A model generated the notes under the pieces. That model had not been told where the DNA came from. It worked only from the letters and a program-made list of their open reading frames with translations, and searched no databases. 64,000 nt of DNA, from positions 62,001 to 126,000 of the forward strand of contig NZ_FXAY01000007.1 of the NCBI RefSeq assembly GCF_900177685.1, written 5' to 3'. How positions within the stretch are numbered: the first letter of the stretch is position 1; the number at the start of each line of letters is the position of its first letter. Positions 4,433 to 62,484 of this stretch are shown here, piece after piece. The stretch comes from Agreia pratensis. GTDB taxonomy: Bacteria; Actinomycetota; Actinomycetes; Actinomycetales; Microbacteriaceae. A program made the position numbers and the translations under genes.

Positions 4433-6975
4433 GACGTCTCCTCGACTGCTGGATCGGCTGCGGGAAGGGAGACCACCATGGTCAAGCCGCCGCCGGGCGT
4501 GTCCTCGGCCTCGATCGTTCCACCCATGCCCTCGACGAACCCCTTCGAGAGGGCGAGGCCCAGACCGAGACCGGTGGAATTGTCGGTGTCGCCCAGACGC
4601 TGGAACGGAACGAAGATCTCGTCTCGCCGTTCGCCGGGGACGCCCGGGCCGCTATCGACCACGCGCAGCTCGACCCGGCCGCGGAATGCGCTGGCAGAGA
4701 GGCGCACCTTCGCGCCTTCAGGCGAGAACCGCACCGCGTTCGACAACAGGTTCACCAGAACCCGCTGCAAGAGAACCTCGTCGGCCAAGACAGGAGGCCG
4801 CTCGTCGCCATCGAGGGCGAGTTCCACCCGATCAGGTCCGAGTTCCAATTCGTCGAGCGCGGGAACGATCACGTCTTCGACATCGATCGCGTGCATCGAC
4901 ACGGCCAGCACACCCGCCTCGACACGGCTGACGTCGAGCAGATCTGTTACGAGGTCGGCGAGGCTGTCGAGACTCTCCTGGGCCGTATCGAGCAACTCGG
5001 TGCGGTCGTGCGAACTGAGTTCCACCTCGGTCGACCGGAGCCCGCTCACGGCAGCGGTCGCCGCGGTCAGAGGGCGGCGCAGATCGTGACCGACCGCCGC
5101 GAGCAGAGCACTGCGCATGCGATCGGCGACGGCGAGGGGTCCGACCTCACTCGCGGTCGCAGCCAGATCCCTGTGCTCGAGAGCCTGATCCATCTGGGCC
5201 GCGATGACTCCGAGCAGGCGGCGCTCGGATGCTGCGAGGTCTGGGCCGCAGAGCTCGAGCGTGGCGCGCTCGCCCACCGCGATCGTCGACGCCGCCCGCG
5301 CCGCGGTCTCAGTTTCAGTCGCAGTCTCGAACCCAGCCTCGGCCTCGTAATCCGACATCGTCGATGAAGCCAGGATGCTGCCATCCAAGGCTTTGAGCCG
5401 CACCTCGTTGAGCCTGAAGGCTTCGCGTGTTCTGTCGACGAGCGCCTGCAGGGCGTCTTGCCCCCGCAGCACGCTGCCGGCGATGCTCGCGAGAAGCTCC
5501 GACTCCGCCGCCGCCCGCCTCGCCTGCCGCGAGCGCCGAGCAGCGGTATCGACAACCACGCTGACCAGCACGGCGTTGACGACGTAGAGCGCCAACGCCA
5601 ACAAGTGCAGCGGTTCGCCGACCGAGACCGTGTAGAGCGGAGAGACGAAGAAGAAGTCGAGCGTGAGTCCCGAGAGCAGAGCGGCGAACAAAGCAGGCCA
5701 GATTCCGCCGACCAACGCCACGAGAACGACGAGCAGCTGGAACGTCAGCACATCCGAGGTGATCGACTCGTCAGACCTCAGCGTGACGAGCAGCCACGTC
5801 ACCAGAGGCCCTCCCCCGAGGGCGAGCACGAATCCGAGAACACGGCGACGAGCGGTCAACGACCCGCTGAACCGGGGAAGACGCAGCTTTCCTCCCGCCG
5901 CCGCGTGCGTCACGATATGCACGTCGATGTCACCCGACGCGCGGATCACGGTCGCCCCGATGCCCGGTCCGGAGAGGGCAGCACTCAAGCGGGTGCGTCG
6001 ACTCACCCCGATCACGAGCTGGGTCGCATTCACGCCACGGGCGTAGTCGACGAGCGCCGCGGGAATGTCGTCGCCGACCACCTGGTGGAATGTACCGCCC
6101 AGCGATTCGACGAGCGAACGCTGCGCCGCCAGTGCCCCAGGATGCGCCGCGCGCAAGCCGTCTTGGCTCGTGACATGCACGGCGACGAGCGTGCCGCCGG
6201 CCGACCGGGCGGCGATCCGGGCGCCTCTCTTCAACAGAGTCTCGCCCTCGGGCCCTCCGGTGAGGGCGACGACCACGCGCTCCCGCGCTTCCCACTTGCT
6301 CGCGATTCCGTGGTCTGCTCTATACGACTTGAGTGCCGAGTCGACCTCGTCGGCAAGCCAGAGGAGGGCCAGTTCACGCAGCGCCGTGAGGTTGCCGAGC
6401 CGAAAGTAGTTCGAGAGCGCGGCGTCGATGCGCGCTGCGGGGTAGACGCGTCCGTCGGCGAGCCGGTCGCGCAGCGCCTGCGGGGCCAGGTCGACGACCT
6501 CGAGCTGATCGGCCGAGCGCACGACCCCGTCGGGCACGGTCTCCTGCTGGCGCGCTCCCGTGATCTGCTCGACGACGTCGGTCAGCGACTCGATGTGCTG
6601 GATGTTGACGGTCGTCATCACGTCGATGCCGGCATCCAGCAGGGTCTCGACGTCTTGCCAGCGCTTCTCGTGGCGCGATCCGGGAGCGTTGCTGTGCGCC
6701 AATTCGTCGACGAGGGCGACATTCGGTCGCCGCTCGAGCACGGCGTCGAGGTCCATCTCGCTGAGCGTCACTCCCCGGTGCGTCACCGACAGACGCGGCA
6801 CGACCTCGAGGTCGGCGAGCATGCGTGCTGTGGCCGAGCGCCCGTGGGTCTCGACGACCGCAACGACCACGTCGCGGCCCTCGGCGGCGAGCCGGGCGCC
6901 CTCTTCGAGCATCGTGTAGGTCTTGCCGACACCGGGCGCGGCACCGAGCAGCACGCGAAGACGGCCGCGCCCCAT
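4429..6975 (-). CDS. kdpD: KdpD, potassium/turgor sensor histidine kinase
   Basis: 848 residues, usual length. Order: N-terminal KdpD domain with Walker A-like GAAPGVGKTYTML (about 12-24), a universal-stress-like domain (about 230-365), four membrane helices (about 375-480), a GAF-like linker, the dimerisation box with His at about 629 (AVGHDLRRPLTAA), and a C-terminal ATPase with NLLSNAVRFSPEG and DSGPGVPG. It senses low K+/osmotic stress at the membrane and phosphorylates KdpE. It begins two bases after the kdpC stop and overlaps kdpE, completing a single kdp transcription unit. Confidence 0.96.
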   Translation of the reverse strand: MGRGRLRVLLGAAPGVGKTYTMLEEGARLAAEGRDVVVAVVETHGRSATARMLADLEVVPRLSVTHRGVTLSEMDLDAVLERRPNVALVDELAHSNAPGSRHEKRWQDVETLLDAGIDVMTTVNIQHIESLTDVVEQITGARQQETVPDGVVRSADQLEVVDLAPQALRDRLADGRVYPAARIDAALSNYFRLGNLTALRELALLWLADEVDSALKSYRADHGIASKWEARERVVVALTGGPEGETLLKRGARIAARSAGGTLVAVHVTSQDGLRAAHPGALAAQRSLVESLGGTFHQVVGDDIPAALVDYARGVNATQLVIGVSRRTRLSAALSGPGIGATVIRASGDIDVHIVTHAAAGGKLRLPRFSGSLTARRRVLGFVLALGGGPLVTWLLVTLRSDESITSDVLTFQLLVVLVALVGGIWPALFAALLSGLTLDFFFVSPLYTVSVGEPLHLLALALYVVNAVLVSVVVDTAARRSRQARRAAAESELLASIAGSVLRGQDALQALVDRTREAFRLNEVRLKALDGSILASSTMSDYEAEAGFETATETETAARAASTIAVGERATLELCGPDLAASERRLLGVIAAQMDQALEHRDLAATASEVGPLAVADRMRSALLAAVGHDLRRPLTAATAAVSGLRSTEVELSSHDRTELLDTAQESLDSLADLVTDLLDVSRVEAGVLAVSMHAIDVEDVIVPALDELELGPDRVELALDGDERPPVLADEVLLQRVLVNLLSNAVRFSPEGAKVRLSASAFRGRVELRVVDSGPGVPGERRDEIFVPFQRLGDTDNSTGLGLGLALSKGFVEGMGGTIEAEDTPGGGLTMVVSLPAADPAVEETS

Positions 6976-51818: not shown

Positions 51819-53252
51819 TCACACGTCTTTGTAACGCTGATTGTGCTTGATGCGGTTGCTGATCTCGGTGACCTGGTTGTAGATCGAACGCTTCTCGGTC
51901 ATGAGCTTGCCGATCTTGTTGTTCGCGTACATCACAGTGGTGTGATCGCGGCCACCGAAGAGCTGACCGATTTTGGGTAGCGACAAGCTCGTCATCTCGC
52001 GGCATAGATACATGGCGATCTGCCGTGCCGTTGCAATCGCCTGCGACCGGGAGGACCCGTAGAGATCGTCGACCGAGAGTTTGAAGTAGTCGGCCGTGTG
52101 ATTGATGATGTCGACCGGCGCGATGATGTTGTCTTCGTCGAGCGTGATGAGGTCTTTGAGAACGGTCTGAACGAGTTGCATGTCGACGGGCGTGCGATTG
52201 AGGCTCGCGAATGCCGTGACTCTGATCAGTGTTCCCTCGAGCTCGCGCACATTGGACGAGACCTTCGTGGCCATGTACTCGAGGATGTCGTCGGGCACAC
52301 GCAGTTTCTCGCTCTGAGCCTTTTTTCTGAGGATCGCGATACGCGTCTCGAGGTCAGGCGTCTGCACATCGGTGATGAGACCCCACTCGAACCGCGTGCG
52401 CATACGGTCTTCGAAGCCAGTCAGGGCCTTGGGCGGCAGATCCGATGTGATCACGACCTGCTTGTTGTGATCGTGCAGGGTATTGAACGTGTGGAAGAAG
52501 GCTTCCTGGGTTTCTGCCTTGCCCTGCAGGAATTGGATGTCGTCGATGAGAAGCAGATCGATGTCGCGGTAGCGCGAGTGGAATGCGGCGCCTCTGTTGT
52601 TGGCGATGGAGTTGATGAAGTCGTTGGTGAACTCTTCGCTCGACACGTAACGGACTCGGACTCCGGGATACAGGCTCATCGCGTAATGCCCGATGGCGTG
52701 CAGGAGGTGGGTCTTGCCCAGACCGGAATCGCCGTAGATGAAGAGCGGGTTGTATGCCTTGGCCGGAGCTTCGGCCACGGCAACCGCTGCAGCGTGGGCG
52801 AAACGGTTCGATCCGCCAATGACGAAGTTGTCGAAGCTGTACTTCGGATTGAGGCGCGTGTCGTTATTGCGCGGAGGGCCGACGGTCTCCTGTGCTGGCG
52901 TCGGCGCGGTCTGTACGGCGGGCGTCTCGATGTAGACCGGCTCGGATGCGTCGGCCTGGCCGGCCATCTCGCTCCCGCTGATCTCTGGGTTGACGACCAC
53001 GGAGAAGTTCGTGACATCGAGCCCGGAGTCGAGCTGGCCGATCGCGGCGAGCAGTGACGGACGAACCCTCAGCTCGAGCATGTCCCGGGTGAAGTCGTTC
53101 GGTACCTCGAGATAGAACGAACCGGCCATGATGCCCTTCGGCACCACCAGCCCAAGGAAACCTCGCAACTGCGGTGTAATTCGTTCATCACGGGACAGTG
53201 TCTGAAGGACAGAGCGCCATTGGCCCTCCGTCGAGGCGTCATCCTCCGCCAT
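51819..53252 (-). CDS. dnaA: DnaA replication initiator
   Basis: 477 residues from ATG 53252 (GGGAG six bases upstream); an in-frame ATG six codons earlier has no ribosome site. Domain I at 1-90, a short linker (unlike the long one of Streptomyces), AAA+ domain III with IYGDSGLGKTHLLHAIGHYA, LLIDDIQFLQGK and domain IV with the DNA-binding signature AIATARQIAMYLCREMTSL and GGRDHTTVMYA. Binds the oriC boxes and itself. Confidence 0.98.
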   Translation of the reverse strand: MAEDDASTEGQWRSVLQTLSRDERITPQLRGFLGLVVPKGIMAGSFYLEVPNDFTRDMLELRVRPSLLAAIGQLDSGLDVTNFSVVVNPEISGSEMAGQADASEPVYIETPAVQTAPTPAQETVGPPRNNDTRLNPKYSFDNFVIGGSNRFAHAAAVAVAEAPAKAYNPLFIYGDSGLGKTHLLHAIGHYAMSLYPGVRVRYVSSEEFTNDFINSIANNRGAAFHSRYRDIDLLLIDDIQFLQGKAETQEAFFHTFNTLHDHNKQVVITSDLPPKALTGFEDRMRTRFEWGLITDVQTPDLETRIAILRKKAQSEKLRVPDDILEYMATKVSSNVRELEGTLIRVTAFASLNRTPVDMQLVQTVLKDLITLDEDNIIAPVDIINHTADYFKLSVDDLYGSSRSQAIATARQIAMYLCREMTSLSLPKIGQLFGGRDHTTVMYANNKIGKLMTEKRSIYNQVTEISNRIKHNQRYKDV

Positions 53253-53591
53253 GGAACTCCCGTCGAACATATGAAAAAAATCGATTCTGCCTGTGGAAAA
53301 CTTGGCGAATCGAGCCGATGTGTTGGGCGTGCCCGAGCGTCAGCGAACTGGATAACTAAGCTAGTTGCTGGCATGCAGCGGGGCAAGCTCACTGTATTGA
53401 CTCTACGCGTGTCATGCACAGGCAGTTTCCACAGTCTGTGGATAATAGCTGTCTCTCTGCCCGTGAGGTTTGACCATTGGCATTCGAGGTCGTAGGTTTA
53501 ATCAGTTGACTTGTGGCCAATCGGCCCGCACTTACTTTCCCGGTTCCCTGTCGTGCACTCGCGATGAGGTCCGGGCCACGGAGAACACACC
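53253..53591. promoter_or_regulatory. dnaA-rpmH divergent promoter region with DnaA boxes
   Basis: No gene in this 339-bp gap. DnaA boxes: perfect TTATCCACA (minus) at 53437-53445, GTTTCCACA at 53425-53433, TTTTCCACA (minus) at 53292-53300. rpmH promoter candidate TTGACC (53470-53475), 17 bp, TAGGTT (53493-53498). For dnaA (minus) TTGCCC and TAGCTT, 17 bp apart, lie near 53358-53386. The boxes fit autoregulation of dnaA by DnaA. Confidence 0.6.
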
Positions 53592-53729
53592 ATGAGCAAG
53601 AGAACTTTCCAGCCGAACAACCGTCGCCGCGCCAAGGTGCACGGCTTCCGTCTGCGCATGCGCACCCGCGCCGGCCGCGCCATCCTCGGCGCGCGTCGCC
53701 GTAAGGGTCGCACCGAGCTCTCCGCGTAG
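53592..53729 (+). CDS. rpmH: 50S ribosomal protein L34
   Basis: 45 residues: [20 protein letters not shown] followed by [18 protein letters not shown] and TELSA. Universally conserved sequence; GGAGAACACACC precedes the ATG. First gene of the rpmH-rnpA-yidD-yidC-jag-rsmG operon. Confidence 0.98.
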
Positions 53730-53748
53730 CAGCCGAGCTCGTTTCGCT

Positions 53749-54102
53749 GTGTTGGCTCACGCCAACCGGATCACGACCGCCGATGACTATCGAGGCGTGG
53801 TCCGGAAGGGAACACGTTTTGTGTCCCCGAACGCCGTGACGTACCTTCGCACGCCCAAAAACGAGCAATCCGTGCCCGCAGCGCCTCGATTCGGATTCAT
53901 CGTCGCAAAGTCCGTTGGCGTCGCCGTGGTCAGAAATCGTGTGCGTCGGCGACTCAAAGCGGCGAGCTACACGATGCTCGATCGTGTCAAGCCGGGAACC
54001 GATGTGGTTGTGCGGGTCTTACCGGGAGCAGCATCTCAGCCTTACGGCGTACTCTGCGAAGAGTTAGCCGCATCGCTTCGGAAGGGATCCGCACTCGTAT
54101 GA
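53749..54102 (+). CDS. rnpA: Ribonuclease P protein component
   Basis: 117 residues from GTG 53749. The RNR motif AVVRNRVRRRLKAASYTML (about 62-80) and N-terminal ITTADDYRGVVRKGTRF are diagnostic. It pairs with RNase P RNA (not in this window) in 5' tRNA maturation. Its stop overlaps yidD as ATGA. Confidence 0.96.
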   Translation: MLAHANRITTADDYRGVVRKGTRFVSPNAVTYLRTPKNEQSVPAAPRFGFIVAKSVGVAVVRNRVRRRLKAASYTMLDRVKPGTDVVVRVLPGAASQPYGVLCEELAASLRKGSALV

Positions 54103-54440
54103 CGACGGTTCCTGTCTCTGCCGTTTCCTGGAAATACGCCTTGATCAGCGTATTCTTGGTGCCTCGCAACGTCGCGGTGGTTGTACTCCGCGCCTACCGC
54201 GCTGTTATTTCTCCTCTCTACGGCGATGTCTGTCGGTACTACCCGTCGTGTTCGTCGTACACCCTCCAGGCAATCCAGCACCGCGGACTGTCTGTAGGAG
54301 CTGGTTTAGGCATCCTGCGTATTGCACGCTGTCACCCCTGGGCAGCTGGCGGCGTCGATGATGTGAAGCCGGCCAAAAACCCCCGATACGCGCTGACGCC
54401 GTTCGGATTCGTTGTTCCACGTAGCCACGGAAAGGGCTAG
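54099..54440 (+). CDS. yidD: YidD, membrane protein insertion efficiency factor
   Basis: 113 residues. Signature YRAVISPLYGDVCRYYPSCSSYTLQAIQHRG (in parts: YRAVISPLYGDVCRYYPSC; SSYTLQAIQHRG) with three Cys, then RCHPWAAGGVDDV. Helps YidC-mediated membrane insertion. The C-terminal tail is longer than in E. coli. Confidence 0.95.
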   Translation: MTTVPVSAVSWKYALISVFLVPRNVAVVVLRAYRAVISPLYGDVCRYYPSCSSYTLQAIQHRGLSVGAGLGILRIARCHPWAAGGVDDVKPAKNPRYALTPFGFVVPRSHGKG

Positions 54441-54445
54441 ACGCT

Positions 54446-55405
54446 TTGGATCTCCTCGGCACCATACTTTGGCCGATCAAATGGGTCGTCGAACTCATTC
54501 TGGTCGCATTCCACTACGTCTGGACGTGGGTAGGACTCAATCCGAACGACGGCCTCACATGGGTGCTGTCGATTGTCGGCCTTGTGCTGGTGATCCGTGC
54601 CGCCCTCATTCCGATCTTCGTCAAGCAGATCAAGAGCCAGCGCAAGATGCTCGAGGTCGCGCCGCAGCTCAAGAAGATTCAAGACAAGTACAAGGGCAAG
54701 AAAGACCAGTTCTCTCGTGAGGCCATGTCCCGAGAGACGATGGAACTGTACAAGCGCACGGGAACGAACCCTCTGAGTTCGTGTCTTCCCCTGCTTCTGC
54801 AGATGCCCATCTTCTTCTCGCTGTTCTCCGTTCTCAACGACGCACAGCACGAGAAAGCGGGCGGTGGTGTCGGTCTTCTCAATGAGACGCTGGCAAAGTC
54901 ATTCGGTGAGTCAGATCTCTTCGGTGCTCCTCTGAAGGCGACTCTCGCCAACAACGAGGGCAGCGTTCTTGTGATCGTCTTCGCGGTCTCCATGATCGCG
55001 TTGATGACGGCATCGCAGTTCATCACCCAGCTGCAGATCATGTCGAAGAACCAATCGCCCGAGGCCAAGAACAGCCCGATGTTCAAGCAGCAGCGGATCC
55101 TGCTCTACATCCTCCCGATCGTCTTCGTGTTCTCCGGCGTGGCCTTCCCGCTCGGCGTGATGTTCTACTGGCTGACCTCCAACTTCTGGACGATGGGACA
55201 GCAATTCCTCGTCATTCGCAATATGCCCACACCGGGCAGTGAGGCAGCGAAGGCGCGTGAAGCCCGACTCGCTAAGCGAGGAAAACTGGTTATCAAAGAC
55301 GGCCCTCTGAGTGACGAGACCGTCGTAGACGAAGTACCGAAGACGACGCAGCGTCAGCAGCCCGTCGGTAAGAACCGAGCCAAGAAGCAGGGTGGATCCA
55401 AGTGA
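54446..55405 (+). CDS. yidC: YidC/Oxa1 membrane protein insertase
   Basis: 319 residues from TTG 54446. First helix after MDLLGTILWPIKWVVE, then the conserved core with the cytoplasmic-loop Arg in LVIRAALIPIFVKQIKSQRK, the PLSSCLPLLLQMPIFFSLF segment and further helices around 175-195 and 220-255. A basic Lys-rich C-terminal tail (RAKKQGGSK) contacts ribosomes. Gram-positive type without the large periplasmic domain. Confidence 0.96.
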   Translation: MDLLGTILWPIKWVVELILVAFHYVWTWVGLNPNDGLTWVLSIVGLVLVIRAALIPIFVKQIKSQRKMLEVAPQLKKIQDKYKGKKDQFSREAMSRETMELYKRTGTNPLSSCLPLLLQMPIFFSLFSVLNDAQHEKAGGGVGLLNETLAKSFGESDLFGAPLKATLANNEGSVLVIVFAVSMIALMTASQFITQLQIMSKNQSPEAKNSPMFKQQRILLYILPIVFVFSGVAFPLGVMFYWLTSNFWTMGQQFLVIRNMPTPGSEAAKAREARLAKRGKLVIKDGPLSDETVVDEVPKTTQRQQPVGKNRAKKQGGSK

Positions 55406-55971
55406 GTGACGTGACAACCGAGACCGTGTCGACGGATGAGGCCGGTGAGGTCGTGGTCGTCGACGAGGCGATCGTGGGAACCGATGTAGCTGAGTCGAGT
55501 GAGTCCACCCCGGAGGCGAACCTCGACGACGAGGGCGACATCGCAGCTGACTACATCGAGGAACTCCTCGATATCTGCGATCTCGACGGAGACATCGACA
55601 TCGACACCCGTGGTGGCCGCGCTTACATCTCTGTCAACGCGTCAGGCGACAGCAACATCCGCGTTCTTTCGAAGCCCGACACCGTCAACGCTTTGCAGGA
55701 GCTCACCCGTCTCGCTGTTCAGACGAAGACCGGTGCCTTCAGCCGCTTGATTCTCGATGTGGGTGGAAGTCGCGAGGCTCGTCAGGCCGAGCTCGGCCGA
55801 CTCGTCGATTCTGCGGTCGCTCGTCTCGATGCCGGCGAAGAGTCTGCCGCACTGCCGGCCATGTCGTCATACGAGCGCAAACTTGTTCACGACATCGTCG
55901 CGGAGCGTGGGCTGGTCTCAGCCTCCGAAGGTGACGGCCGCGATCGCCACACCGTCATCAGCCGCGGCTGA
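55402..55971 (+). CDS. jag: Jag/KhpB RNA-binding protein (KH-R3H)
   Basis: 189 residues from GTG 55402. Acidic N-terminal 50 residues, then a KH-II domain (about 55-120; GGRAYISVNASGDSNIRVLS) and an R3H domain (about 125-185) with LPAMSSYERKLVHDIVAERG. It binds RNA with KhpA and affects division and wall synthesis. The acidic start is typical of actinobacterial Jag. Overlaps yidC by four bases. Confidence 0.93.
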   Translation: MSDVTTETVSTDEAGEVVVVDEAIVGTDVAESSESTPEANLDDEGDIAADYIEELLDICDLDGDIDIDTRGGRAYISVNASGDSNIRVLSKPDTVNALQELTRLAVQTKTGAFSRLILDVGGSREARQAELGRLVDSAVARLDAGEESAALPAMSSYERKLVHDIVAERGLVSASEGDGRDRHTVISRG

Positions 55972-56006
55972 CCGAGCACTACTCCCCCGCACTTACGGGA
56001 ACCGTG

Positions 56007-56642
56007 ATGAGCATTCCTGAGAACACCGAAGTCGAGCCCGGCGTTGCTGCTGACCTGTTCGGCAACCGCATCGAGCTCGCCCGAGAGTTCACGAACGCGC
56101 TGGCGACCCACGGCGAAGAGTACGGTCTCATCGGTCCGTTGGAACTCCCCCGGCTGTGGACTCGGCATGTTCTCAACTGTGCGATCGTGGCTCCCCTGCT
56201 TCGTGAGGGAACCGTAGGAGATATCGGTAGTGGCGCTGGGCTTCCCGGTCTGATTCTGGCTATCGCCCGGCCCGAGATCCACTTCACTCTCATCGAACCG
56301 ATGGAGCGTCGGGTCAAGTGGCTGAATGATCAGGTGCGTTCTCTCAAACTCGATAACGTGACCGTTCTGCGTGACCGGGCCGAAGACGTGCGGCTGGCAG
56401 AGGGCTTCGATCAGCTCACTGCTCGTGCCGTGAGTGCGTTCTCGAAACTCATCCCCATGTGCGCACCCCTTGTCGTACCCGGGGGCGAATTCATCCTGAT
56501 GAAGGGCATCAACGCGGCGAAAGAGATCGATGCTGCCGAGAAGCAGATTCGACGGTTCAAGCTCCGCGATGTCAGTGTTGTCGAGCTGGGTGAAGGCGTT
56601 CTGCCAGAGACGACTCGCGTAATCAGGGCTATCGTTTCGTAG
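56007..56642 (+). CDS. rsmG: RsmG, 16S rRNA m7G527 methyltransferase
   Basis: 211 residues from ATG 56007 (an adjacent GTG at 56004 is equally possible). SAM-binding motif VGDIGSGAGLPGLILAI (about 75-91), LIGPLELPRLWTRHVLNC before it, and VLRDRAEDVR after. Last gene of the operon; the parS1 palindrome follows immediately and may double as its terminator. Confidence 0.96.
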   Translation: MSIPENTEVEPGVAADLFGNRIELAREFTNALATHGEEYGLIGPLELPRLWTRHVLNCAIVAPLLREGTVGDIGSGAGLPGLILAIARPEIHFTLIEPMERRVKWLNDQVRSLKLDNVTVLRDRAEDVRLAEGFDQLTARAVSAFSKLIPMCAPLVVPGGEFILMKGINAAKEIDAAEKQIRRFKLRDVSVVELGEGVLPETTRVIRAIVS

Positions 56643-56645
56643 AGC

Positions 56646-56673
56646 CTCGAATGTTTCACGTGAAACATTCGAG
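56646..56673. other. parS: parS site 1 in a 28-bp perfect palindrome
   Basis: TGTTTCACGTGAAACA (56652-56667) is the consensus ParB site without mismatch, extended by CTCGAA / TTCGAG to a 28-bp palindrome four bases after rsmG. Confidence 0.95.
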
Positions 56674-57180
56674 TTGCGTTGTCATCCGAGTTGGCGGTTC
56701 AGTGCTGCTTCGCCCGTTGCTGTCGCTGGGCTGAACGGGGCATCGAGGAACAGAGCGAGACGAACCGGCCGTGGGCGCAGACAGCCGATGTGGGGTGCGG
56801 CGCCGCTCATTCCTCGCCGCTCATCCATGGCCACTCCCCCGGTGGCAGACAGGGGTGGCCCGCGTGCCTTGTGCGGCACAACCCTTCTCAGCGTCGCCTT
56901 GGCGGAACGCGCACACCATGCGCTCCTCCACGGAGCTGCGATGGAGATCCAGCGGGATGCCCGAGACCTCGTCGATAGTAAGACAAGCGATGTCGCCAGC
57001 ACTTGCTCCAGATTGATTCCCACGCTGCGATCTCGGTGCTGTGCGTGCCCACCTTCATCATGAAGTCCGGTCGAGGTGGACATCAGCGGCCGGCTGGAAG
57101 TAGCTGCCTCGCTCGTGAATGAACGGTGGCGTGGGTGTCACGTGTCATCGACGACTCGCGATCCGCGACTTACAAAAGAC

Positions 57181-57222
57181 GACCGGTGACCGGTGACCTG
57201 TGACCTGTGACCGGTGACCGGT
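57181..57222. repeat. 7-bp tandem array GACCKGT x6
   Basis: Six units: GACCGGT twice, GACCTGT twice, GACCGGT twice, then GATCG. No function visible. Confidence 0.9.
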
Positions 57223-58131
57223 GATCGAAGCGACCAGCGCTTGGTCTAGCGTGTTCGAATGTGACGTGGGTCCGCTCCACGGGTGTGGAAGCTGGTCGAC
57301 TCACGCAGCCGAAACAGGTAATTGCTCTAGTTTGCGGGCGGAGCGAAAGCCAGGTTGGAGCCTCGTGGACGTACGCCAGGTCTCCTCCGCGCGGTGTTGG
57401 GAGACGATCCCGCAGCATCTGCGCTGACCGTTGGCGGGCCGCATTCCTGTGTGTGCATTGTCCTCGAATGGAGGTGTGCACACGCTCGAATCTGGCGGTC
57501 GGCAGTGTCCGTTGTGGTGCGCCGGACAGGAAAATTGGCAGCAAATGGCTGGCATGGTGATGGCGCCTACTGCGCGTGATTTCACGACGGAACAGGTCGG
57601 AAAGGGTTCGATTCAGAGTTCACGGGTGGGCGCCTGGGATGTGGGCAGCGGCGACAGGAGGCACTGAAAATCGCGGACCGCGATGTTGCCTTGTGGGCAT
57701 AACTCGCAGTACACAGGGAACCTCGCGTAGGCACGGATAGAGGGTAATGAGAGAGCTTCTCTCTGGGTTATTGAGGACTGGAGAGGCTCGGAATCGACAG
57801 AAGTGGGTCCGCAGACGACGACCCCACCCGGATGAGAAGTGACTGACCTGCGCAAGATGCTTGGGAGGGTAGTAGACGCAGCGGACGTAGAAGCAGAGGC
57901 ACTGGTGATTCAGCAGCGATGCAAGGCGGCTGCGACTGAGAAGCGATGCGCCGAACCTGGGGAGTAAGCCGGTGGGTTGGGTAGCGGAGACTATGCCACG
58001 GATGGGACGTGGTGACGTAGGGACGTGGGCAGGTGGTGATGAGGTGATGAGGAAACGGACGCAGGATGTGGTCGCGGAGTGAGTGGTGGCGCGGAATGCG
58101 CTCGCCCGACTGATGCACTGACGCGGTTGAC

Positions 58132-58192
58132 GCGCAGATGGGTGGCGCAGATGGGTGGCGCAGATGGGTGGCGCAGATGGGTGGCGCAGAAT
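58132..58192. repeat. 13-bp tandem array GGTGGCGCAGATG x4
   Basis: Three exact copies from 58141 plus a fourth ending GAATG, preceded by a partial copy (GCGCAGATG). Confidence 0.9.
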
Positions 58193-58238
58193 GCGGTGGC
58201 GCGGGGACGCGGCGGCGCAGGGACGCGGACACGTGGAC

Positions 58239-58318
58239 GTGGAGACGTGGAGACGTGGAGATGCGGAGATGCGGAGATGCGGAGATGCGGAGACGTGGAG
58301 ATGCGGAGACGTGGATAT
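58239..58318. repeat. 8-bp degenerate tandem array GYGGAGAY x10
   Basis: Ten consecutive 8-bp units alternating GTGGAGAC, GTGGAGAT, GCGGAGAT and GCGGAGAC, the last being GTGGATAT; flanked upstream by ACGTGGAC. Purine-rich plus strand. Confidence 0.9.
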
Positions 58319-58348
58319 GCGCGGGCGCAGAGATGGTGAGAAGCTGTG

Positions 58349-58444
58349 CTTGCCCGCTTGCCCGCTTGCCCGCTTGCCCGCTTGCCCGCTTGCCCGCTTG
58401 CCCGCTTGCCCGCTTGCCCGCTTGCCCGCTTGCCCGCTTGCCCG
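58349..58444. repeat. 8-bp perfect tandem array CTTGCCCG x12
   Basis: Twelve identical copies over 96 bp; the next bases (GTTGACACGG) depart from the unit. The perfect identity points to recent slippage or selection, and copy number probably varies between strains. Unit length is not a multiple of three, so the frame changes every copy. Confidence 0.95.
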
Positions 58445-59159
58445 GTTGACACGGCTGATGCGGTGAGTGCGGTGAGCCCGGGCTTAGTCTCTGCAGCGCT
58501 CCAGCTCTGAGACGCAGACGCTGTAGGTGGGGGTGCCGAGAGCCTCGGTGGTGCGAAGATGGCGTCGACGAGTGCGGGGAATAGTGCCCTTGAATAGGCA
58601 GTGGCGGCACTTTGCGGGGCGACTGCGTGATGAGCGTCGCCTGTTCGGAGGGCGAGTTGTCCGCGCCTGAGATCCGATTGGATCGGCGCGGTGCGAATGT
58701 CGGCTCCCGCCGAGCTGCGGGCCTGTGCGGATTGCACTCGCGTGGCGTTGTCGGGACAGCATGCGGTCTTTACAGCTCGGCCGTGTCAGTCGTCATCTGA
58801 TCACGGCAGTGGCCGTGCCATCAACGCGATCGCGCAGTCGAACGGGCATCGGCGATGCGTTGCGGAGAGCGTTGCAGCGAAAGCGATCCACTCGGAGATC
58901 CGTTCGTCTCCATCGAACCCTGTTTTCTGCGCGGTGTGTGCCTGGTCTCGCTCGGATGCTCATGTCCCACACGAAATTCAGGAAGGCTCGAAGATTGATT
59001 GTCGCGGAGGTGCCCACCGAAAGACGTGGCCGATGTGGCGTGGCGTCCCTCTCGCGACGAAAAGCCACCGATGCGTCGTCGCGAACTCCTCGACCCGATG
59101 GGCGGGACACTCGGAGTTCGCTCGGAGCCGCCTTCTTCCGAACGCTCATTGCCGTCCGA

Positions 59160-59175
59160 TGTTTCACGTGAAACA
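59160..59175. other. parS: parS site 2
   Basis: Exact TGTTTCACGTGAAACA, 331 bp upstream of the parA start, with CCGA / TTCGAG flanks. Confidence 0.95.
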
Positions 59176-59506
59176 TTCGAGGATCTCGACAAGAGTGTCA
59201 TGCGAAAAGAGGGACGGGCGCGCATACTGCACTTTGAATGATGTCGTCAAGAGCAAAGCAGGACTTTTCGTTCGCTCAAACGGATCCTAAGCGATTTTGG
59301 TGGTCTCCAGAACGGACGAAAATCGGGCAAAAATCGACCGATTTCTGTCTCAACTTAGAGTTTCCAGCGACGGCGGGTACTTTGGTCTAGGGACGATTTC
59401 GTTTCGACATGTGGTCACGTGATTGATGGTCAGTGTCTTCCATCCTCTCCCCCGGCCTCGGGTTTCTTCGGGTCGCCAACGGAACTCAGCAAGTCAGGAT
59501 TTGTGG

Positions 59507-60433
59507 ATGTCAACGGAACCAATTGGTGGAGACGCATCGTTCGATGCCTCGACACCCCTGGCTCGTGAGCTGGCCGACCTCTCGAATCGTCGTCGCAATT
59601 TCGCGAAGCGTGTTGTTCCTCTTCCGGATACGACACGAGTATTCACCGTCGCCAACCAGAAGGGTGGGGTCGGCAAGACCACGACGACAGTCAATCTTGC
59701 AGCGGCACTCGCTCGCAGCGGGGCTCGCGTTCTCGTGATCGACCTCGATCCGCAGGGCAACGCATCGACGGCCCTTGGTGTAGAACACCGGGCAGACACT
59801 CCGAGCGTGTACGACGCACTCGTTCGTGACGAACCCATGGCCGACCTCGTTCAGAAGAGTCCAGAGTTCGACACTCTCTTCTGCGTGCCAGCCACCATCG
59901 ATCTCGCCGGCGCGGAGATCGAACTTGTGCCCATGGTCGCCCGCGAGCAACGCCTCCGCACGAGCGTGGACGCGTATCTGCAGGAGTCATTCGACGCCGA
60001 CGCCGCGTATCACTACGTATTCATCGACTGCCCACCGTCTCTCGGCCTGCTCACCATCAACGCCTTCGTCGCGGCGCATGAAGTTCTCATTCCCATCCAG
60101 TGCGAGTACTACGCGCTCGAAGGTCTGAGTCAACTCTTGAAGAACATCCAGCTGATCGAGCGTCACCTGAATCCCACTCTTGCCGTATCGACGATTCTGC
60201 TGACGATGTACGACGGTCGCACGCGCCTGGCCTTTCAAGTGGCAGAGGATGTTCGCAGTCACTTCCCGGATCAGACCCTCGCCGCCGTCATCCCCCGCTC
60301 GGTACGAGTGTCGGAGGCCCCCAGCTATGGTCAGACCGTGATCAGCTTCGACCCCAATTCACCCGGCGCACTCTCGTATTTCGAGGCCGCAGCCGAGATC
60401 GCAGACAGAGGAGCGCCCACCGATGGCAACTAA
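59507..60433 (+). CDS. parA: ParA, chromosome-partition ATPase
   Basis: 308 residues from ATG 59507 (AGGA seven bases upstream). Residues 1-45 are a non-conserved extension; the deviant Walker A KGGVGKTTTTVNLAAALA starts at about 53, Walker A' LVIDLDPQGNAST and Walker B FIDCPPSLGLLT follow. It forms a DNA-bound ATPase gradient pulled on by ParB-parS complexes. The 330-bp gap upstream contains AAATCGG / CCGATTT (59320-59344), a possible operator, and no gene. Confidence 0.96.
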   Translation: MSTEPIGGDASFDASTPLARELADLSNRRRNFAKRVVPLPDTTRVFTVANQKGGVGKTTTTVNLAAALARSGARVLVIDLDPQGNASTALGVEHRADTPSVYDALVRDEPMADLVQKSPEFDTLFCVPATIDLAGAEIELVPMVAREQRLRTSVDAYLQESFDADAAYHYVFIDCPPSLGLLTINAFVAAHEVLIPIQCEYYALEGLSQLLKNIQLIERHLNPTLAVSTILLTMYDGRTRLAFQVAEDVRSHFPDQTLAAVIPRSVRVSEAPSYGQTVISFDPNSPGALSYFEAAAEIADRGAPTDGN

Positions 60434-61403
60434 GAAGAGAACCGGCCTCGGTCGAGGGATCGGCGCCCTCATCCCCACCAATGACTCGGTCGATTCCGAT
60501 GGGCGCCCGGGAGTTCGACCGGTAGACGTGTTCTTTGCCGATCGTGGCGAGGCAGCTGTTCCGCCGCAGGCGGATCTGGTCGAGGTACCCGGGGCTCGCC
60601 TCGCCCACCTTGATCCCGCCGATATCGTTCCTAATGCGAAGCAGCCGCGCGCAGTCTTCAAAGAAGATGATCTTGCCGAGCTCGTCGTATCGATCCGTGA
60701 GATCGGCGTGCTTCAGCCTGTGGTTGTGCGCCCACTCCCCCTCGTTGCAGGCGAGAGACCCAAGTATGAACTGGTCATGGGTGAGCGGCGGCTCCGGGCA
60801 ACCCGGCAGGTCGGCCTCGAGAGCATTCCGGCGATCGTCAAAGACACCGCCGATGAAAACATGCTTCGCGACGCCTTGCTTGAGAACCTCCACCGGTCCG
60901 AGCTCAATCCCCTTGAAGAGGCCTCGGCGTACCAGCAGCTTCTCAGTGACTTCGGAATCACGCAAGACGAGCTGGCAACACGGATCGGTCGATCACGACC
61001 TCAGATCACGAACACGATCCGTCTGCTTCGCCTGCCTGCCGCGGTTCAAAAGCGCGTAGCCGCCGGCGTTCTCAGCGCCGGTCACGCACGAGCGGTGCTG
61101 TCTGCAGGAGACGCCGACGCGATGACACGTCTCGCCGACAAGATCGTGAACGAAGACCTCTCTGTTCGAGCCGCAGAGGCCGCCGCGAGTGCTGCTCCGA
61201 AGCCGGCGAAAGCCAAGACCGTCGCAGGCGCCAAGCGGGGCCACCTCGACGAGATCGCCGACCGCCTGGGAGATCGTCTCGACACCCGCGTGAAGGTGAG
61301 TCTCGGTAGATCGAAGGGCCAGATCGTCATCGATTTCGCCACTATCGGCGACCTGAATCGCATCCTCGCCGAGCTGGGTGACAAGGGATTCGGCCGCCCC
61401 TGA
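60423..61403 (+). CDS. parB: ParB, centromere-binding CTPase
   Basis: 326 residues, overlapping parA by 11 bases. N-terminal KKRTGLGRGIGALIPTN (the ParA-contact peptide), CTP-binding box MGERRLRATRQVGL (about 120-133), DNA-binding helix-turn-helix QDELATRIGRSRPQITNTIR and a C-terminal dimerisation domain. It nucleates on the four parS sites nearby and spreads as a sliding clamp. Confidence 0.97.
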   Translation: MATKKRTGLGRGIGALIPTNDSVDSDGRPGVRPVDVFFADRGEAAVPPQADLVEVPGARLAHLDPADIVPNAKQPRAVFKEDDLAELVVSIREIGVLQPVVVRPLPLVAGERPKYELVMGERRLRATRQVGLESIPAIVKDTADENMLRDALLENLHRSELNPLEEASAYQQLLSDFGITQDELATRIGRSRPQITNTIRLLRLPAAVQKRVAAGVLSAGHARAVLSAGDADAMTRLADKIVNEDLSVRAAEAAASAAPKPAKAKTVAGAKRGHLDEIADRLGDRLDTRVKVSLGRSKGQIVIDFATIGDLNRILAELGDKGFGRP

Positions 61404-61438
61404 CTCCATCGTGGCCTCGCTGCCGCCAGATACAACAC

Positions 61439-61470
61439 AACCCCGATGTTTCACGTGAAACATCGGGGTT
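61439..61470. other. parS: parS site 3 inside a 32-bp palindrome after parB
   Basis: parS TGTTTCACGTGAAACA at 61447-61462 is extended by AACCCCGA / TCGGGGTT to a perfect 32-bp palindrome, shaped as a terminator hairpin between the converging parB and ddl genes. One element seems to serve both segregation and termination. Confidence 0.92.
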
Positions 61471-61492
61471 GCGTCGTTAATAGCGGCAGGAA

Positions 61493-61508
61493 TGTTTCAC
61501 GTGAAACA
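61493..61508. other. parS: parS site 4
   Basis: Exact TGTTTCACGTGAAACA 30 bp after site 3, 13 bp from the ddl stop, with the same 3' flank TTCGAGTTGCG as site 1. Confidence 0.95.
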
Positions 61509-61521
61509 TTCGAGTTGCGCG

Positions 61522-62484
61522 TCAGATCGCGGCGTCCGAAATGGCCTTTTCGCCCAGCGCTTCGTAGACCTCGCCGAGGTTGAGCCCGGCTGCCTGGATG
61601 GCCTGGGGAACCAGGGAGGTCTCGGTGAGGCCGGGCAGCACGTTGGCCTCGAGGAACCAGACCACACCGTCATCATCGATGATGAGATCGACGCGCGAGA
61701 TGTGCCGCAAGGCGAGTGTGTTGTGGATGGAGAGAGCGGTGGACTGAGCCAGCTCGGTGACTTCGGGCGACAGGCGCGCAGGAGTGAAGAAGCGGGTCTC
61801 CCCCGCGTTGTACCGAGCGTCGTATCCATAGACACCCAACCGGGGCTCGATCTCGACGGCGGGCAGCGCAAATGGACCGTCGCCCGTGTCGATGATGCCG
61901 ACCGAGATCTCGGTACCCGAGACGCGACGTTCGATCAGTGCGACGTCGCCATATGTGTACGCCTCGACAACTCCCCGGCGAAGATCGTCTGTGTCGGCGA
62001 CCATTGAGACGCCCTGCGCCGACCCACCCTGCGCCGGCTTCACAACGAGGTCTGTGCCGAACTGACTGGCGACGCGATCGAGAACCTGCGCCGACCCGAG
62101 CTCGCGGAACGTATCGCGCGGGAGCGTGATGGACTCGGGCGTCGAGAACCCGGCACGGGCAACGATGACCTTCGCCGTGGGCTTGTGCCAGGCGAGCCGG
62201 CTCGAGCCGGGCTGAGACCCCACGTATGTGATCTCGAGGGCATCGAGCAGCGCCCTGAGAGCGCCATCCTCACCACTCGCGCCATGGAGTGCGGGCCAGA
62301 CCACGTCGGGGCGGTTGGACTCGAGGTAGGACAGCAGTGTCGCATCCGGTTCACGCAGAATCACGGTGTGTCCACGATCGAGCAGGCCATCGGCGACGCG
62401 ACGACCGGAGCGGAGCGAGACGTCACGCTCGTGCGAGATGCCTCCGGCCAAAACGACAACGGTACGAGAGGTCACGGTATTCAT
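61522..62484 (-). CDS. ddl: D-alanine--D-alanine ligase
   Basis: 320 residues from ATG 62484, two bases after the aminotransferase stop. ATP-grasp enzyme: VVVLAGGISHERDVSLRSG start, WPALHGASGEDGALRALLD, LVVKPAQGGSAQGVSMV, and catalytic ISRVDLIIDDDG and FLEANVLPGLTETSLVP. Makes D-Ala-D-Ala for peptidoglycan. Somewhat shorter than E. coli Ddl families, but a known type at this locus in actinobacteria. Confidence 0.9.
   Translation of the reverse strand: MNTVTSRTVVVLAGGISHERDVSLRSGRRVADGLLDRGHTVILREPDATLLSYLESNRPDVVWPALHGASGEDGALRALLDALEITYVGSQPGSSRLAWHKPTAKVIVARAGFSTPESITLPRDTFRELGSAQVLDRVASQFGTDLVVKPAQGGSAQGVSMVADTDDLRRGVVEAYTYGDVALIERRVSGTEISVGIIDTGDGPFALPAVEIEPRLGVYGYDARYNAGETRFFTPARLSPEVTELAQSTALSIHNTLALRHISRVDLIIDDDGVVWFLEANVLPGLTETSLVPQAIQAAGLNLGEVYEALGEKAISDAAI

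Follow-up and report, generated by a model that had tools for sequence, protein, structure and literature searches.

A gene-free, fast-changing block capped by parS sites between rsmG and parA in Agreia pratensis

The stretch of 64,000 nucleotides from Agreia pratensis analysed here (the window) carries the parts of an ordinary chromosomal ParABS system (Table 1). The product of parA belongs to the Walker-type ATPases, and ParB possesses an N-terminal, a helix-turn-helix and a C-terminal domain according to Pfam. Between the end of rsmG (56642) and the ATG of parA (59507) lie 2,864 bp with a parS site near each end. For this interval, an initial annotation made from the sequence had proposed a structural centromere spacer, an untranslated RNA locus or a recent expansion of selfish repeats.

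Table 1. Features of the rsmG-parB region in window coordinates.
Feature	Position	Strand	Evidence or remark
rsmG (gidB), upstream border gene	56004..56642	+	Pfam GidB, E=4.8e-47
parS1, 16-bp core 56652-56667, within a 28-bp perfect palindrome	56646..56673	.	directly 3' of rsmG
Spacer of the centromere block, gene-free, fast-evolving	56674..59159	.	ORFs at chance, no 3-periodicity, interior identity near shuffled
Tandem array, 7 bp x 6.3	57181..57224	.	unit absent among arrays scored in five sister blocks
Tandem array, 13 bp x 5.3	58132..58202	.	unit absent among arrays scored in five sister blocks
Purine-rich degenerate array, 8/16/32 bp	58200..58335	.	unit absent among arrays scored in five sister blocks
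GCTTGCCC array, 8 bp x 12.6	58348..58448	.	single place in own genome, up to 2 mismatches
parS2	59160..59175	.	counterpart 346-348 or 406-408 bp before parA in six Agreia
parA-proximal conserved region, presumably promoter/leader	59176..59506	+	sequence identity and shared words among Agreia
parA	59507..60433	+	AAA_31, E=1.9e-57
parB	60423..61403	+	ParB_N, E=1.7e-30; HTH_ParB, E=2.2e-33; ParB_C also above cut-off
parS3 and parS4, 46 bp apart	61447..61508	.	between parB and convergent minus-strand ddl-like frame

Exact parS sequences (TGTTTCACGTGAAACA) start at 56652, 59160, 61447 and 61493. At up to three mismatches the window contains these four sites alone (0.14 expected). The whole 3.58 Mb assembly holds four parS-like sites at up to two mismatches, all within 4.9 kb at this locus. 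The first is located about 3.4 kb from dnaA, so that all sites of the genome cluster near oriC, which was assumed to lie beside dnaA. The initial annotation had placed one parS immediately after rsmG and another 331 bp upstream of parA. Both positions proved correct: parS1 starts 10 nt past the final nucleotide of the rsmG stop codon, and parS2 ends 331 bp ahead of the parA start.

The approximately 2.5 kb between parS1 and parS2 had been described as lacking a defensible gene, and analyses of open reading frames (ORFs), periodicity and Pfam domains agreed. The longest ORF of the interval comprises 280 aa, inside the range of shuffled sequences (mean 243, maximum 417). Median GC three-base periodicity amounts to 0.07, equal to that of shuffles (0.076), versus 0.28-0.43 in five flanking genes. 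The longest non-periodic run of the window extends over 2,670 bp (56551-59220), the runner-up over 750 bp. A Pfam scan of three block ORFs yielded no match, and a set of seven ORFs from the window with 110 aa or more, these three frames included, had no strong one. In all six long Agreia blocks introduced below, the longest ORFs fall within the shuffle range and median three-base periodicity is at chance. The window and 20 named loci contributed, with no more than seven per locus, a batch of 102 ORFs of at least 110 aa. It gave one strong Pfam match (RidA, PF01042, E 1.3e-13), in another genome, and two weak ones from ORFs that were not traced (PF19028, E 0.003; PF04253, E 0.0086). A conserved protein in the block, named by the initial annotation as counter-evidence, was searched for and none was found. 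Nominal ORFs reach 280 aa, yet their chance-level length, the missing periodicity in six blocks and the single strong match among 102 ORFs make a fast-evolving, orphan or degraded protein gene hardly credible.

The strong match was located through ranking on codon-position GC and a rescan. A RidA-like gene lies on the minus strand at L053:5252-5656 in Leifsonia sp. 71-9; it sits on the rsmG side of a 3.1-kb interval that has no other coding signal.

Eight Agreia genomes were compared, that of the window (G000) included, with interval lengths starting at the last aligned rsmG codon. Six have a long rsmG-parA interval: G000 (2,867 bp), Agreia sp. Leaf210 (G002; 2,854 bp), Agreia sp. VKM Ac-1783 (G005; 2,777 bp), Agreia bicolorata VKM Ac-1804 (G001; 1,685 bp), Agreia sp. 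PsM10 (G004; 1,437 bp) and Agreia sp. Leaf283 (G003; 2,888 bp). In all six, one parS follows the final aligned codon of rsmG at a distance of 13-14 nt, and a second one stands 346-348 or 406-408 bp before parA; in G001 these end sites lie 1.3 kb apart. Three further parS lie inside the interval of G003. Identity of parA to that of G000 is 95-98% in six of the seven genus mates and 77% in G007. The stretch from parS2 to parA is likewise preserved: identity is 75-80% across four pairings of G000, G001, G002 and G005, and 74% between G003 and G004. The block had initially been drawn as far as 59506. This delimitation holds up to parS2; the conserved 331 bp before parA lie outside the drifting block and are probably the parA promoter region.

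Within 59176-59506, the words GATCCTAAG, TTAGAGTT and TACTTTGG are nearly fixed in their distance from parA in the six Agreia, and TTAGAGTT also occurs 138-157 bp before parA in the loci L075, L088 and L111. These words are candidates for a parA promoter element.

Inward of the end parS, sequence identity is lost. Among G000, G001, G002 and G005 the interiors are 43.6-46.3% identical versus 41-45% after shuffling, while four-fold sites of the same comparisons retain 55-62%. For G000 and G005 the values are 0.463 for the interior, 0.43-0.44 for shuffled sequence and 0.617 for four-fold sites. The interiors of G003 and G004 are recognisable but rearranged, with a repeat of about 190 bp (52% identity versus 43-46% shuffled; four-fold sites 70%). 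Four-fold divergence among the long Agreia pairs examined spans 0.30-0.55. Decayed or half parS sites in the Agreia interiors amount to little beyond chance: two sites with three mismatches (0.6 expected), six with four (3.9 expected) and three half sites (3.2 expected). In 34 blocks of other genomes, 11 sites with two mismatches were counted where 0 were expected, and 35 half sites where 22.5 were expected.

Four tandem arrays had been reported in the block, and all were recovered, at four loci within 57181-58448. Their units vary by lineage. G000 has units of 7, 13, 8 and 16 bp, G002 one of 6 bp, and G005 a CACG-like, a 12-bp and other units; the repeats of G003 and G004 measure about 190 bp. 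In G001 no array was scored, yet its interval spans 1.7 kb. No scored array of G000, G002, G005 or G001 holds a parS. A search of the own genome for block copies (40 of 49 candidates scored) gave only parS-sized matches outside the block. The GCTTGCCC array has no counterpart elsewhere in the genome, the other arrays not having been searched individually. A dispersed mobile or selfish repeat is unsupported, as only parS-sized matches recurred elsewhere among the scored candidates. With units differing by species and no scored array in G001, an expansion of selfish repeats is not supported as the cause of the block.

The G-rich plus strand was confirmed by the GC skew of window 56643-59506, which is +0.148 over the whole interval and +0.144 between the parS sites with the arrays removed. 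Third-codon-position skew of yidC, rsmG, parA and parB ranges from -0.24 to -0.01. The positive skew of the interval (approximately +0.15) contrasts with these negative values of neighbouring plus-strand genes.

Long intervals recur at the same junction in other genera. Among 80 named loci, 76 were measurable (no measurable interval in L063, L077, L085 and L089), and 19 of these have at least 800 bp between rsmG and parA. The longest, from Microbacterium kyungheense, reaches 7.6 kb and carries 12 parS. Five neighbouring junctions of the named loci never attain 800 bp (rnpA-yidC 0/69, yidC-jag 0/74, jag-rsmG 0/74, parA-parB 0/80, dnaA-rnpA 0/68). A gene-free block was defined as an rsmG-parA interval of at least 800 bp with less than 30% periodic windows and at least two parS; G000 and five genus mates come under this definition. 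The survey of the family covered one genome from each of 80 other genera, 78 of them measurable (L109 and L149 were not). Seventeen intervals reach 800 bp; 16 remain under 30% periodic windows, and all 16 contain 3-13 parS. The 61 short intervals have no parS in 11 cases, one in 47 and two or more in three. From other families of the order, 40 genomes were taken, 38 of them measurable (L211 and L215 were not). Twelve intervals are at least 800 bp long, and eight pass the periodicity threshold, with 2-12 parS. Long intervals with coding signal were excluded from the gene-free count (L164 in the family; L210, L214, L219 and L221).

The parS sites are concentrated in these intervals. Twenty named intervals of at least 762 bp contain 88 parS cores (up to one mismatch) in 49 kb, versus 34 in 330 kb of flanks; five shuffles contained none. 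Six non-Agreia block genomes were searched completely at up to one mismatch. The interval holds every genomic parS in G080 (13/13), G170 (12/12), G155 (8/8) and G189 (4/4), and most of them in G062 (7/8) and G024 (4/6). The Agreia intervals hold two of four, or five of seven in G003. A FastTree phylogeny of RsmG-ParA-ParB with 183 labelled rows, 41 of them long, requires at least 20 changes between the long and the short state, a count that does not separate gain from loss. Label shuffles (100) needed 37 changes on average and never fewer than 32. The state is therefore passed down within clades, although it has often been gained or lost.

For further comparison 40 blocks were pooled: the six Agreia, 12 of the 19 named loci of at least 800 bp and 22 surveyed intervals with less than 30% periodic windows. 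The remaining seven named loci include five Agreia entered under other identifiers. L033 was omitted on suspicion of a gene, which was not borne out (three ORFs without strong match), and L092 (843 bp, one parS) by choice. L118 and L131 were dropped, being the same organisms as L043 and L099.

The closest long pair, L095 and L099 of Plantibacter, has 80% identity at four-fold sites, and its block aligns at 73.8%. Five aligned parS cores are identical at 13-14 of 14 positions, while other 14-mers of the block average 71% and 18% of them reach at least 13; five of five is notable but comes from one pair alone. At a four-fold divergence of at least 0.3, the other block pairs compared approach shuffled values: 57.5% for G004/G003 (shuffled 0.40-0.44), and 50.7% for L075/L088, 48.1% for L053/L072 and 49.6% for L093/L099 (shuffled 43-46%). 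Repeats that include parS were inspected in three loci. L210 (genome G200) contains, at about 6119-6286 of its interval, six head-to-tail 28-bp units that differ in a single border base; every unit includes a parS with the core GTTTCACGTGGAAC. This repeat is an iteron-like parS satellite; its 6.96-kb interval is periodic in 58% of windows and was not counted as gene-free. In L088, parS-like cores occur in four units of 106 bp and six of 30/31 bp. In G003 the three inner parS have similar surroundings, diverged repeats offset by about 350-400 bp. Judged from these arrangements, parS can multiply through tandem duplication.

A non-coding RNA locus read from the G-rich strand was also considered. 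Plus-strand folding reaches z values of -5.2 at 58200 and -4.1 at 58140, and z falls below -2 in 11 of 92 block windows versus one of 60 in parAB. However, the best-folding windows are tandem arrays that the sisters lack, the interior offers no alignable sequence that could show a conserved structure, and an Rfam covariance search of 53000-62000 gave no match at E<=1. Promoter-like sites in 56000-60000 numbered 0 against 0.8 expected in shuffles, a comparison of little power. This second proposal of the initial annotation was given up, an RNA locus being very improbable.

DnaA boxes at up to one mismatch are absent from 56.6-59.5 kb. The window contains 15 (10.6 expected), of which six surround dnaA (51.6-53.5 kb) and three lie at 39.1 kb. 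The pooled blocks are enriched in DnaA-box words (TATCCACA in 14 of 40, 0.9 expected); the other enriched words, AACTCTAA, GCTTAGGA and CCAAAGTA, come mostly from the region of the parA promoter in the six related Agreia. The block was rejected as oriC, as it shows no DnaA-box cluster; exact boxes in some lineages lie mostly less than 600 bp from parA (L133 excepted), and none occur in Agreia blocks. Neither an RNA, a hidden protein, an origin nor a dispersed selfish repeat found support.

Exact DnaA boxes within about 600 bp upstream of parA were found in L093, L095, L099, L134, L166, L183, L185, L202, L208 and L209, not in Agreia. A control of parAB by DnaA is possible in loci with boxes near parA.

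Behind parB, parS3 is embedded in a 34-bp perfect palindrome (61438-61471) facing a convergent minus-strand frame that resembles ddl. The palindrome arms extend 9-10 bp past the 14-bp core in all six long-block Agreia, and the structure may double as a terminator hairpin between the convergent genes. An extended palindrome is no general trait of block parS: 109 of 202 sites have no extension past the 14-bp core.

The block is read here, with a probability of about 0.6, as a gene-free form of the ParB-parS centromere, a dedicated and largely sequence-independent platform for ParB loading and sliding in which the arrays are by-products of slippage. ParB is reported to load at parS with CTP and then to slide or spread onto adjacent DNA. 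At this locus, ParB dimers would load at parS1 and parS2, and downstream of parB at parS3 and parS4, then close into clamps that slide into the 2.5-kb gene-free spacer. A dense ParB complex near the origin would arise, a substrate for ParA and SMC. Spacer length and freedom from genes and promoters would weigh more than sequence, hence the drift, and replication slippage would leave short-lived tandem arrays. In some other lineages, duplication within the interval would also multiply parS. Spreading of Caulobacter ParB is reported as at most 2 kb around a single parS (PMC5815017), so a 2.5-kb interval capped by parS could be filled from both ends. In the data reported for C. glutamicum, ParB has its maximum within 2 kb on either side and reaches to 16 kb (PMC7083940). 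In P. aeruginosa, ParB at two intergenic parS is described as repressing adjoining genes, a reason to keep genes away (PMC7022226). What selection keeps would then be the freedom from genes and promoters, and the recurrence at one specific junction speaks for such selection. Of the three initial proposals the structural spacer is supported by comparison, through a long interval with both capping parS in five of seven genus mates and similar intervals in other genera; the role of ParB in it is inferred.

Several points weigh against this reading. The block is absent from 61 of the 78 other family genera and, within the genus, from G006 (387 bp, one parS) and G007 (238 bp, two parS). Absence from sisters, named at the outset as counter-evidence in combination with a lack of ParB enrichment beyond the parS sites, holds for two of seven genus mates and not for the other five. 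Five of the six long Agreia have only two parS in the interval, and the closest long Agreia pair, G003 and G004, differs two-fold in length (2,888 versus 1,437 bp). Such absences and variable lengths speak against selection on freedom from genes. Across the 40 pooled blocks, length and parS number are weakly correlated (rho 0.32, p 0.046). Neutral change alone would account for part of the alignment loss. Of 24 intervals counted as gene-free, L112, L144, L185 and L213 show 23-28% periodic windows, and L053, one of the pooled blocks, contains the RidA-like gene, so that the label depends on the periodicity threshold. In C. glutamicum one parS is reported to suffice, which argues against a general need for a gene-free platform (PMC7083940). 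Transcription and ParB condensates are described as coexisting in vitro, ParB clusters being compatible with RNA polymerase in single-molecule work (PMC10681803).

Some of these observations also fit tolerated junk, in which the parS sites do all the work and a neutral spacer grows via slippage and duplication, either as gene insertions beside parS are selected against or as nothing removes it. The G000-G005 interior is close to shuffled sequence and far below four-fold sites, the length of the closest long Agreia pair changes two-fold, two genus mates have no block and the arrays are lineage-specific. Bacteria, however, tend to delete idle DNA. Long gene-poor intervals nevertheless occur in 19 of 76 loci here and in none at five neighbouring junctions, and in the family all 16 gene-poor long intervals carry at least three parS. 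Tolerated junk is considered unlikely, although it keeps an appreciable share of the probability. Alternatively, the block could be a breeding ground of parS, amplified by recombination or the repair of breaks close to DNA covered by ParB; parS copies would be carried along in repeats, of no benefit to the cell. This would account for the parS-bearing repeats of L210 (28-bp units), L088 (106-bp and 30/31-bp units) and G003. These are three loci, encountered in no systematic search, and the arrays of G000, G002, G005 and G001 are free of parS, which leaves this explanation a very small chance.

The gene-free, fast-changing block is a variant of the ParABS centromere. A literature search, which had most subscription journals outside its reach, found no earlier description of such a block. 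As similar blocks recur in related bacteria, a dedicated gene-free centromere may be maintained in some bacteria. More tentatively, and at less than even odds, some actinobacteria may possess a counterpart of the regional centromere: a kilobase-sized gene-free ParB platform beside parAB that turns over faster than synonymous sites, gathers parS (in some cases as true satellites), is often gained and lost, and is identified by ParB load and freedom from genes, not by sequence. Eukaryotic regional centromeres consist of gene-poor, fast-changing DNA, with satellites in some lineages, and are defined by the proteins loaded. The likeness is an analogy only, as a conserved 16-bp site governs loading here, the size is in kilobases and the proteins are unrelated. 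To our knowledge, fast-evolving, satellite-bearing centromere DNA has so far been a eukaryotic theme, and the block, if correctly interpreted, would be a bacterial case. The extent to which bacterial centromeres need transcription-free DNA is an open question, given parS within genes in Caulobacter, repression in P. aeruginosa and compatibility in vitro. Related species with and without the block, and at least 20 state changes on the tree, represent a natural experiment on it.

The ParABS system of Corynebacterium glutamicum, also an actinobacterium, is described with ParA, ParB, the same 16-bp parS consensus and several sites in the origin region (PMC7083940). There, ten parS, nine of them intergenic, are reported over 35 kb and 73 kb from oriC (PMC7083940), whereas the Agreia locus has four parS in 4.9 kb around rsmG-parAB, two of which bound a gene-free spacer. 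Caulobacter crescentus shares an origin-near parS cluster, and its reported spreading range matches the block size; in contrast to the gene-free spacer, its parS are described within essential or costly genes (PMC5815017). Mycobacterium has the gene order jag-gidB-parA-parB and the same exact parS in the published account. Its gidB and parA overlap, with parS at gidB and inside parA, while the two genes lie 2.86 kb apart in Agreia (PMC2346475).

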